Origin: Taibaiella koreensis
GTDB lineage: Bacteria; Bacteroidota; Bacteroidia; Chitinophagales; Chitinophagaceae
Assembly: GCF_003545715.1 (NCBI RefSeq)
Contig: NZ_QVNU01000005.1
Span: 310,001 to 374,000, forward strand
Direction: 5' to 3'
Length of the DNA: 64,000 bases
Position 1 is the first letter of the stretch. Each line of letters begins with the position of its first letter. This document shows, piece by piece, positions 11,004 through 16,817 of this stretch. Below the pieces are notes generated by a model. It worked only from the letters and a program-made list of their open reading frames with translations, searched no databases and was not told the DNA's origin. Both the position numbers and the translations under genes were made by a program.

Positions 11004-11360
11004 TTATTCGCTATGCCAGTTGTCGAACAGTAACTGGAGATAGTGATTTTCCTCTACGGTGATTACCCCGTCGGCTTTGGTCAGATCCAGGGCAAATTGC
11101 AGCAGGTTGTTCCTTTCTTCGGGTGTGGCGTCGTCGTAAAAATCATCCATGTACTTCAGAAAATGCCGTTCCCACTCCTCAGGAGTAAGGCTGCTGATCT
11201 TTTCCATTTCCCGGTCCAGGTTGACATGAAATGGAAATTCCTGCTCCAGATAATCGCGTATCACCATATCTTCCGATGCCTTGAAGCGAAAATCGGCAGC
11301 GGCGAGGATCATCAGTAAATGGTAACCGGCAATGGTCTTGTTCGTTCTGTTATTCGGCAT
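11004..11360 (-). CDS. Small acidic helical protein, TerB-like
   Basis: A 118-residue acidic protein. It resembles the TerB fold: an N-terminal helix (GYHLLMILAAADFRFKASED), a middle helical pair, and a C-terminal LQFALDLTKADGVITVEENHYLQLL segment. TerB proteins carry this form of acidic motif (aDG.i...E...l). TerB-domain proteins are linked to tellurite resistance and membrane stress, but the function here is unknown. It converges with lptC and lies about 75 bases downstream of the alanine dehydrogenase gene. Confidence 0.55.
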   Translation of the reverse strand: MPNNRTNKTIAGYHLLMILAAADFRFKASEDMVIRDYLEQEFPFHVNLDREMEKISSLTPEEWERHFLKYMDDFYDDATPEERNNLLQFALDLTKADGVITVEENHYLQLLFDNWHSE

Positions 11361-12647: not shown

Positions 12648-12994
12648 ATGAGAAAGGAGGAGTAAGGTAGTGCCTTTTTTTAGATAATAAAAGCAAGTTT
12701 CTTTAAAAAATTTCAAAATGTTGCAGCAAAAATTATTCCAAAGTATAAGCAGGAACATCACAAGCTGCAAAATATAACAGCCTTAGCCAAAATGAGCCGT
12801 CTCCCCAGGTGCAGTAAAGGATCGCCCACCAGCAAAACGCCTGCTTCCAGCTGTTAAAAACCTTGTGCTTTCTTAGCCAGGTAACGATCTACGGGCTGCT
12901 TTTTTTATGCTTCTCCACGACTACTTTTCCGCACTGCACATTTTCTGCAGTGGCAAACTGGATCTTTAGTCTTCATTTAAAAAACCAAAACCGA
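12648..12994. other. Intergenic region between ald and the lanthipeptide-like gene
   Basis: No convincing gene was seen. It should hold divergent promoters for ald and the precursor gene. A short perfect hairpin, CACTGCA / TGCAGTG with a seven-base loop, lies at 12932-12952, about 43 bases before the precursor start. It could be a 5'-UTR structure. No perfect TAnnTTTG element was found for the precursor; TACTTTTC near 12922 is the closest. Confidence 0.5.
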
Positions 12995-13294
12995 ATGAAA
13001 AAGAAAGTATTAGGTGTAAAATTGTCTCTTAAAAAAATTACGATTGTTGCATTAGACAGTGAAAAAGGCGGCCGGGTTATCGGCGGTACCGGCGTTAATC
13101 TTTGTATCGAAACCTTAGACTGCCCTACAGCCAGGTTGTGCCCAACGAACGGTTGCCCTGTGGAAACAGCAGATGGCTGTGCTTTTACCCAAACATGCCA
13201 ACCCACCTGGCAACGGTATTGCTCCGTTCAGCTGTGCCCTACCCCGACTACAATTAAGAACTGCCCCTCTTTTACGCAGATCTGTCCGCTATAA
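12995..13294 (+). CDS. Orphan class I lanthipeptide-like precursor peptide
   Basis: A 99-residue peptide. Residues 1-31 match the leader style of Bacteroidota class I lanthipeptides: a MKKK start, a KLSLKKITIVALD core motif and a GG end. The 68-residue core holds ten Cys, and every Cys has a Thr or Ser two to four residues before it (for example ETLDC, PTARLC, PTNGC, TIKNC, FTQIC). That is the spacing expected for (methyl)lanthionine rings. Six Cys are followed by Pro. I chose the ATG at 12995 because it begins the recognisable leader; the frame stays open back to 12863. A strong terminator follows 12 bases after the stop. No dehydratase, cyclase, protease or dedicated exporter lies in the window. 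A disulfide-rich secreted peptide is the alternative. Confidence 0.75.
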   Translation: MKKKVLGVKLSLKKITIVALDSEKGGRVIGGTGVNLCIETLDCPTARLCPTNGCPVETADGCAFTQTCQPTWQRYCSVQLCPTPTTIKNCPSFTQICPL

Positions 13295-13306
13295 AAGCGT
13301 GAAAAG

Positions 13307-14788: not shown

Positions 14789-15688
14789 TTATCGGGTTAC
14801 CGTAAACTTGGCAACGGCCACCTGGTCGTCGGTATCGAATTGTAACATATACATGCCATTGCTCAAACCGGAAACATCCAGGCTGTATTCCCCGAGGCCG
14901 GTGGGTATGCTACCGAAGTTCCTGCTGGCAACGATCTTGCCGGTAATGTCCCGCACTACAGCCATAGCATGCGATGCCTTGGGAGCATCAAAGTTGAAGC
15001 TGATCTTACTGCCGGCAGGATTAGGATATACCGAGATAGCTGCCTTTTCTTTTTTGGCCAGCATTTCGCCGATGCTGTTGGCATTGGGGTTCCATATCAC
15101 TTTTACGGCAGCCCGGTTGTTCCCGTTCCGCACATCGGCGCCCTGAACAGGGTCCTCGCGATACTCGTTCACGCCTGCGCCTTCAGGCTGAACACCCAAT
15201 ACCTTAAAGAAGAATCCATAAGCCTGACCGGCTACAAGATCGGCGCGGTTCACTGTAGTGAAAGCGTTCGTTTCCCAGTCGCTCCATTTACAAAGTGCTT
15301 TAATCGAATCGGCCGAAAGAGTAAAAGGTGAGATGTGCCCGGCTCCGAGTTTATTAGTATTGGGGAAAACAAATATCACACTGGATGCGGCTATCGACTG
15401 GTCGTCTACAAAACTGAAGCCGCTGGCATTTACCGCGTCAGGAGTAGGAAAATTGTTGAAAGAGGAATAGAAAATAACGGTCTGTGTATTCGGAATGATC
15501 GCATCCGTATTGCAGCGGATACCGCAGCGAATAGCATTGGTATCCAGGTTGCCCGTAGCAGCGAGATTACTATTTTCAGCGGGCAAAGCAATGATCGCTT
15601 CCAGATCGATAGGGTCGTTGGCGGTTTGCGCCTGGCTGGCAGTGCAAAAAATACCCAGGGATGCAAGTGTAAGTAAGATTTTATTCAT
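14789..15688 (-). CDS. Secreted T9SS type A cargo protein, paralog 1
   Basis: A 299-residue protein with a signal peptide (residues 1-20, ending SQAQ) and a type A T9SS sorting domain over about the last 80 residues (SVYPNPAGSKISF ... YSLDVSGLSNGMYMLQF ... AKFTVTR). The middle domain is not recognised. It contains three Cys-bearing segments and a VIWNPNANSIGEML motif that recurs as VIWQAGTSIGELL in the neighbour at 15924. T9SS domains direct proteins through the outer membrane and are usually cleaved. The upstream region closely resembles that of the neighbour, which points to duplication. Confidence 0.85.
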   Translation of the reverse strand: MNKILLTLASLGIFCTASQAQTANDPIDLEAIIALPAENSNLAATGNLDTNAIRCGIRCNTDAIIPNTQTVIFYSSFNNFPTPDAVNASGFSFVDDQSIAASSVIFVFPNTNKLGAGHISPFTLSADSIKALCKWSDWETNAFTTVNRADLVAGQAYGFFFKVLGVQPEGAGVNEYREDPVQGADVRNGNNRAAVKVIWNPNANSIGEMLAKKEKAAISVYPNPAGSKISFNFDAPKASHAMAVVRDITGKIVASRNFGSIPTGLGEYSLDVSGLSNGMYMLQFDTDDQVAVAKFTVTR

Positions 15689-15797
15689 AGTCTTATTATT
15701 TACAGAAAATTACAAAATAAATATTATTCCAAAAATAATTTTCCTCTGACACAAATGCTCATCCGGCATTATTTTTCCTCGTTTATTTTTTTGCTTT

Positions 15798-15854
15798 ATC
15801 GCACATAACCGCACTTCCCGGTGATGATCGCCGGGAAGTGCGGTTATGTGCGAT
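15798..15854. repeat. 24-bp perfect inverted repeat
   Basis: Two 24-base arms (15798-15821 and 15831-15854) are exact reverse complements, separated by nine bases. The arm holds the unit GCACATAACCGCACTTCCCG. It is not followed by a T run on either strand, so it is not a standard intrinsic terminator. It lies between two paralogous T9SS genes read on the minus strand. It could be a REP-like palindrome, a transcript-stabilising hairpin or the remains of a miniature element. Confidence 0.85.
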
Positions 15855-15923
15855 CAGAGTACCGGTCTTGCAAAGGCGATGCTTCATTCAACCTATCTGC
15901 CTGCCCGGGACAAGCCGGTGACC

Positions 15924-16817
15924 TTACTTTCTCACAAACTTGCTGATGTAGATAGCATTGTCGGTAATTACCTGTAATGTATAATTGCCTACGGGTAGCT
16001 GCTCCACATTGCAGAAATATTGCCGAGTACCGCTGCTGGCACCACCCAGGGCTTTTGCATGTAAAACGCGCCCGTTCACATCTATCACCCTGGCTACTGT
16101 CGACCGGTTTGCCTTGCTGAATGTAAGCGCGAAATTGAGCTTGTCTGTAGTGGGATTGGGATAGACTTCCAGGGGGGTGTAACGCGTGCGGGACAATAGC
16201 TCTCCGATACTGGTACCAGCCTGCCAGATAACAGGCGTGTAGGACCAGTTATTGGTTTGATCGGGGTCGGTAAAGGTGCCCTCATTCCAATTGGGATAAG
16301 GCCTCATATGTGCGTACCATCCATAGGTTTGGCCGGAAACCAGCTCAGAACGGCGGTACAACATATCCTCGAACGGATTACCAATCCCGTGCTCTTCGAA
16401 ATACGGAATGTTCAATAAGCTCTCGATCGAATCGGTCGTAGGTACCCAACTGTTATCTAAATAAAAGATAGTCTTACCATTGGCCCCGGCATCGATATCG
16501 GAACCATCTAATGAAAATCCTCTATTGAAACTCATTTGCCCTTGTGCGTTCATCGTGCTCCAGGGTCCGAAAAAGGCAAAAGTATCTGCTGCCGTCAAAA
16601 TGCCACCGGAAGAATCGATGGTAAAAATGATAGCGCCCTGTATACTGTCGGCAGGCGCAGGGAGATTATTGATAACGCCGGTCCCTGAAATCGGTTTGCC
16701 GGGTGTCAGCGCCTGGTTTTCCTGCATAATCGCAAAAGGCTTGAGATCGATCTCCTGTGCATAAACGCTTGTTCCTGCCATTCCTAAAAGAGTTAAACTC
16801 ACTAAAAATTTCTTCAT
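15924..16817 (-). CDS. Secreted T9SS type A cargo protein, paralog 2
   Basis: A 297-residue protein with a signal peptide (residues 1-20, ending VYAQ) and a type A T9SS sorting domain in about the last 80 residues (LEVYPNPTTDKLNF ... VEQLPVGNYTLQV ... ISKFVRK). It has the same length and layout as the product of the next gene, including a tyrosine- and tryptophan-bearing segment before the sorting domain (SGQTYGWYAHM against AGQAYGFFFKV). The middle domain is unknown. The promoter region shares an AT-rich block with the paralog, including TTTGGA followed by an A/T-rich ATATT segment. Confidence 0.85.
   Translation of the reverse strand: MKKFLVSLTLLGMAGTSVYAQEIDLKPFAIMQENQALTPGKPISGTGVINNLPAPADSIQGAIIFTIDSSGGILTAADTFAFFGPWSTMNAQGQMSFNRGFSLDGSDIDAGANGKTIFYLDNSWVPTTDSIESLLNIPYFEEHGIGNPFEDMLYRRSELVSGQTYGWYAHMRPYPNWNEGTFTDPDQTNNWSYTPVIWQAGTSIGELLSRTRYTPLEVYPNPTTDKLNFALTFSKANRSTVARVIDVNGRVLHAKALGGASSGTRQYFCNVEQLPVGNYTLQVITDNAIYISKFVRK

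Follow-up and report, generated by a model that had tools for sequence, protein, structure and literature searches.

A gene of 99 codons in the genome of Taibaiella koreensis most probably encodes the precursor of a class I lanthipeptide, one of ca. 127 such precursors that are scattered over the genome, share a leader of the LxLxKx5L...GG type, carry diverse cores rich in Cys, Thr, Ser and Pro, and would be modified in trans. The gene (Table 1) lies within the window, i.e., the whole 64-kb stretch of DNA that was analyzed (G000:C19:310001-374000, G000 being the source genome of 5.94 Mb in 24 contigs, 99.65% complete).

Table 1. Features of the precursor gene in the window (positions of the window) and upstream elements of the pseudoknot class elsewhere in the source genome (contig:position)
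Feature	Position	Strand	Basis or remark
Operator-like dyad ACTGCA-N7-TGCAGT, perfect copy	12933..12951	+	One of 15 perfect G000 sites among the matches listed
-7-like promoter box GATCTTTA	12961..12968	+	9 nt after the dyad; read from the sequence
Class I lanthipeptide precursor candidate gene	12995..13294	+	ATG start, 99 aa plus stop; leader model; orthologue, apparently under purifying selection
Leader peptide, LxLxKx5L motif, Gly-Gly end, residues 1-31	12995..13087	+	NF038153 match over residues 1-31; leader alignment
Core peptide, 10 Cys, each with Ser/Thr x(2-4) upstream	13088..13291	+	Translation, shuffles, orthologue
Terminator-like hairpin past the stop codon	13301..13328	+	Fold: 12 pairs, z-score -6.06
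Pseudoknot-class upstreams, G000	C22:109006, C10:634318, C16:208280, C24:82787, C10:140740, C21:37754		
Pseudoknot-class upstreams, G000, continued	C24:53271, C1:21482, C1:21072, C10:620781, C10:1355324, C19:38302		

The precursor gene and its neighborhood

The ORF, on the plus strand with an ATG start and 99 amino acids, is as had been described from its letters alone: the translation contains ten Cys, and Pro comes directly after six of these. Its leader had been attributed to the class I lanthipeptides of Bacteroidota, and it does match NF038153 (lant_leader_L1a, the curated NCBIfam model of the class I lanthipeptide leader) with 25 bits, above the cut-off of 22. The Pfam scan of the precursor gave two weak matches alone, both at chance level (E of 0.22 and 7.7), and none to Nif11. 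The claim that every Cys of the core has a Ser or Thr upstream was also borne out: with two to four residues in between, it holds for 10 of the 10 Cys. When the same core was shuffled 20000 times, the mean was 4.6 and a fraction of 0.00015 reached ten; in the opposite (downstream) direction 6 of the 10 Cys have a Ser or Thr at x(2-4). For this test the leader was split at the first GG, so that the tested core has 73 residues and includes RVIGG.

As the sequence-only reading had stated, there is neither LanB, LanC nor a C39 exporter within the 64-kb window, since the genome matches to PF04738, PF14028, PF05147 and PF03412 all fall outside it. The presence of LanB and LanC in the same gene cluster is a usual, if not strictly defining, trait of LanA genes, and its absence from the window counts against our interpretation. 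The gene does have a leader of a recognized class I family and a core with Ser/Thr before Cys, and LanB and LanC are found in the same genome. The term “orphan” applied to this gene is therefore right for the neighborhood and wrong for the genome, where the search recovered two LanB, four LanC and a C39 exporter, i.e., enzymes located elsewhere in the genome, one of the two options that had been offered. Two of the outcomes named beforehand as refuting the lanthipeptide reading, a leader that matches no lanthipeptide family and a genome devoid of LanB/LanC, were thus looked for and did not occur.

A simple consensus terminator scan detected nothing near position 13300, although the fold there shows a strong hairpin, and no Rfam family matched anywhere in the window at gathering scores. 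Two sigma-70-type promoter matches were set aside because they start at the ATG or sit on the other strand. Further along the window (14789-16817), two adjoining minus-strand ORFs of 299 and 297 aa have signal-like starts and C-terminal regions that look similar by eye; they are perhaps duplicated secreted proteins.

A genome-wide repertoire of precursors

The search for further precursors with the same leader, which had been proposed as a check, revealed that the window gene is one of 127 in the genome. NF038153 produced 129 matches in G000 at E values up to 10, 93 of them above the cut-off, and we read the ORFs in the stretches around all 129. Only C16:548973, part of an HtpX-like protein, and C16:155127, truncated by a stop after 26 aa, were left out; the other 127 are short genes (50-109 aa) made up of a leader and a core, with three or more Cys in the core in 125 cases and a median core of 46 residues and 6 Cys. 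A profile built from 50 of the G000 leaders gave 133 matches in G000 at E up to 0.01, a count that is partly circular since the rows of the profile come from G000 itself. At a joining distance of 3 kb the precursors fall into 94 loci, 70 of which are single genes, and 117 of the 127 are more than 10 kb away from any LanB or LanC of the same contig (distances were measured within contigs). The largest groups are two tandem sets of five, at G000:C10:1373359-1375240 and C19:277182-278753. For 65 of the 127 cores, a similar core exists elsewhere in the set (E up to 1e-4).

Across the 127 cores, 591 of the 809 Cys have a Ser or Thr at x(2-4) upstream and 409 have one downstream, the shuffles giving 367 (sd, 13) in both directions. 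The corresponding counts in a control of 202 ORFs from outside the set, each at least 200 aa long and taken from 20 stretches, were 252 and 250 of 802 Cys. Ser/Thr before Cys is the usual direction for lanthionine rings, and the bias of the 127 cores has this direction. It should be noted that the downstream count also exceeds the shuffles (409 versus 367), which counts against our interpretation.

The leader has a patchy distribution. Among 60 genomes of the family Chitinophagaceae, six have matches to the leader model with E values of 0.001 or below (88 in the source genome, then 46, 7, 3, 3 and 1), and the own-leader profile, by which alone the genomes G060 and G061 were scored for leaders, gave 133, 75 (G060), 73 and 0 (G061) at E up to 0.01 in four genomes of the genus. 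Of all 62 genomes, 11 have LanB and 12 have LanC. The seven leader-positive genomes all have LanB, four genomes have LanB without a leader match, and no LanB-negative genome has the leader. In G061 (same genus, 99% complete), precursors, LanB and LanC are all absent.

Modification and export genes

Each of the two LanB ORFs of G000, one on contig C16 (1074 aa) and one on C20 (922 aa), has the N and C dehydratase domains in a single frame, which rules out a split LanB like that of the pinensin type. Residues 37-1042 of the C16 enzyme align to the solved dehydratase 9g04 and residues 450-908 of the C20 enzyme to NisB; at the positions that we take to be the elimination residues of NisB, both LanB show the same letters by eye. 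Downstream of the C16 LanB, there are genes for a C39 peptidase-ABC exporter, an HlyD protein and a cNMP-binding regulator, and one precursor is found 1 kb upstream. The sole further C39 match in the genome is a free-standing 161-aa protein on C10. The four stand-alone LanC ORFs (402-444 aa) have no other Pfam domain, keep WCYG and CHG in all cases and have a precursor within 1.2 kb each. Two TPP riboswitches (L053:9056-9150 and 11110-11199, minus strand, 59.6 and 68.9 bits) flank a precursor-LanC pair on the same strand.

From these genes a route to the product can be proposed. A LanB, most likely that of C16, would act in trans, recognizing the shared leader and dehydrating Thr and Ser of the core, and a LanC would close the thioether rings onto Cys; for the window gene this is most likely the cyclase encoded on C19, singled out solely because both genes have the upstream dyad described below. 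Cleavage after the Gly-Gly and export of the product would then fall to the C39 peptidase-ABC exporter encoded next to the C16 LanB. The ring chemistry is thus a prediction from sequence. As for what the peptides do, our guess would be secretion for antagonism or signaling.

Upstream elements

The dyad found before the window gene recurs, with up to 2 mismatches and within 250 nt, upstream of 35 of the 127 precursors (13 of them with perfect copies; shuffles, 1.1). The match assigned to C10:1416645 (at -206) belongs to its divergent neighbor C10:1417049 and was excluded, leaving 34 precursors with the dyad between -90 and -45. In 29 of the 34, there is a -7-like box, always exactly 9 nt downstream of the dyad (shuffles, 2.7), by a pattern that is loose and was picked after inspection of the sequences; the Bacteroidota -7 consensus is TAnnTTTG. 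Because of this fixed spacing, we read the dyad as a putative operator and set aside the alternative of an RNA hairpin.

With up to 1 mismatch, there are at least 37 dyad sites genome-wide in G000, at least 39 in Taibaiella helva (G001; Chitinophagaceae by the NCBI taxonomy, and the same genus as the source), at least 15 in G060 and at least 7 in G061. Among the matches listed, 13 of the 15 perfect G000 dyads are located before lanthipeptide precursors, one before a microviridin-family precursor and one between divergent genes, and of five further 1-mismatch sites inspected in G000, none precedes a leader-like gene. The matches listed for T. helva include eight perfect dyads; the four that were read directly precede three lanthipeptide precursors and the microviridin orthologue, and the other four are, by coordinates, 41-44 nt from leader matches. 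A 1-mismatch dyad is also found before the T. helva orthologue of the window gene (G001:C34:131878-131896), before the LanC gene on C19 and before the 92%-identical T. helva orthologue of this LanC. Two results count against our interpretation: neither LanB is preceded by the dyad (up to 2 mismatches) and among the four LanC, one has it, and in G060, with its 75 precursors, the dyad counts are near background. Since no LanB has the dyad and G060 is near background, control by the dyad is neither complete nor genus-wide. As a candidate for the dyad-binding protein we considered the cNMP-binding regulator encoded after the HlyD gene on C16.

The microviridin/marinostatin-family precursors are orphan genes at L177:1793-2005 (G000:C10) and L190:10011-10226 (G001:C27), scoring 48 and 47.6 bits with NF033738 (cut-off, 26). 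They have the same perfect dyad and similar neighbors in both genomes, and by eye no ATP-grasp gene was recognized near them. The one perfect G000 dyad without a RiPP-like gene (L178:1826-1844; G000:C10:1507325) separates a divergent gene pair, both members of which have signal-like starts.

Another class of upstream element, which keeps the letters GAACA, CCC, GGC and GACAGG and can form an H-type pseudoknot, was found at 12 precursors (Table 1). Thirteen upstreams have GACAGG, and C17:416223 was dropped from the alignment because the other conserved letters are missing. Five of the 11 pairs are changed on both sides, and the covariation score was 0.328, against 0.202 (sd, 0.024) for shuffles and at most 0.129 when slid. 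No Rfam family matched these elements at E up to 5 in the eight loci scanned, which hold 10 of the 12. This class is perhaps a new cis-regulatory RNA.

Conservation and movement of the gene

The window gene and its T. helva orthologue encode the same residue at 76 of 98 aligned positions, with a dN of 0.13 and a dS of 1.45 (NG86), i.e., a dN/dS of ca. 0.09, and the core alone gives similar values (dN, 0.12; dS, 1.60). To judge by this comparison, the gene appears to be under purifying selection. All 10 core Cys, 11 of the 12 Thr and both Ser are kept in the orthologue. A search of G060 and G061 at E up to 1e-4 yielded no orthologue. At the DNA level, the similarity to T. helva is confined to the ORF plus ca. 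63 bp upstream, the neighboring genes differ, and in the window a hairpin follows the stop codon; the gene and its promoter region therefore seem to move together, and the DppB-type permease next to the gene is not a constant neighbor.

These data bear on the other option that had been offered, a disulfide-rich peptide. The lanthipeptide-type leader would then serve only for export and Gly-Gly cleavage by C39, and the peptide would mature without dehydration, which would agree with the lack of a modification enzyme nearby, the even number of Cys (ten) and the C39 exporter in the genome. We consider this unlikely because the orthologue preserves Thr and Ser of the core along with the Cys, and because Ser/Thr precede Cys more often than they follow it; the co-occurrence of leaders and LanB across genomes and the dyad common to precursors and a LanC gene also speak against it. 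Decay after duplication, which would make the scattered genes degenerating copies and the window gene one that is no longer made or modified, is highly improbable given the dN/dS of the window gene, the dyad and promoter-like box kept in T. helva despite differing flanks, and the open cores behind 127 of the 129 leader matches, even if the scattered layout, the movement of the genes and one truncated precursor (C16:155127) would fit such decay. The suggestion that the gene belongs with the DppB-type permease, which adjoins it in the window, can practically be dismissed, as a strong terminator-like hairpin separates the two genes and the T. helva orthologue, similar in the gene and ca. 63 bp upstream only, has unrelated neighbors in the stretch compared.

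Comparison with known systems

As a class I lanthipeptide precursor, the window gene can be compared with several described systems. Class I clusters of Bacteroidetes have LxLxKx5L...GG leaders and C39 proteases (PMC7268733), and the leader motif, the Gly-Gly end and the C39 protease are alike here, where the gene passes NF038153. The systems presented in that source are clusters, whereas for 117 of our 127 precursors the contig has neither LanB nor LanC in the surrounding 10 kb. Two Bacteroidota LanB were active in Escherichia coli when given a Bacteroidota GluRS/tRNA-Glu pair, according to PMC9993889. The Chryseobacterium and Runella lanthipeptides in that account also depend on Bacteroidota LanB/LanC and were shown to be dehydrated, ring-bearing peptides; they come from compact clusters with one LanA, the portion drawn on here describing no scattered repertoire. 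The lanthipeptides of Pedobacter lusitanus NL19 (PedA15.2), as cited in PMC12328550, are class I and from Bacteroidota, as here.

The closest layout is that of the prochlorosins and synechococsins (ProcA/ProcM and SyncA/SyncM), for which PMC10783134 gives up to 83 scattered precursors per genome. Both they and the Taibaiella set have many scattered precursors with GG leaders, conserved leaders, diverse cores and few enzymes. In contrast, prochlorosins have class II LanM and Nif11-family leaders (PMC10783134), and Taibaiella has class I LanB, stand-alone LanC, another leader family and 127 precursors. The resemblance is in layout alone (127 precursors, 94 loci, 2 LanB and 4 LanC), and membership of the prochlorosins was rejected since there is no Nif11 leader match and no class II synthetase LanM is apparent, the four LanC-domain ORFs of 402-444 aa having no other Pfam domain. 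The best reading of the repertoire is thus a prochlorosin-like layout with class I enzymes and leader. In the open-access literature, which does not include the original articles on P. lusitanus NL19, none of the titles found describes a scattered class I repertoire, and none of the papers combines Taibaiella with lanthipeptides. We find it reasonably likely, with less assurance than for the window gene itself, that Taibaiella holds a class I equivalent of the prochlorosin system, with ca. 127 precursors (more than the 83 of PMC10783134) modified in trans, in which a dedicated operator joins about a quarter of them, a LanC and a microviridin-family precursor in one cross-class RiPP regulon.

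The puzzle of why some bacteria keep dozens of lanthipeptide precursors per few enzymes has been posed mainly by the class II enzymes of marine cyanobacteria. If true, a class I example from Bacteroidota would allow one to ask independently how general a strategy these repertoires represent. LanB and LanC that may accept very diverse cores would be a further gain, useful for making cyclic peptides, and the shared operator would provide a handle on the regulator, on how the set is switched on and on the role of the peptides.
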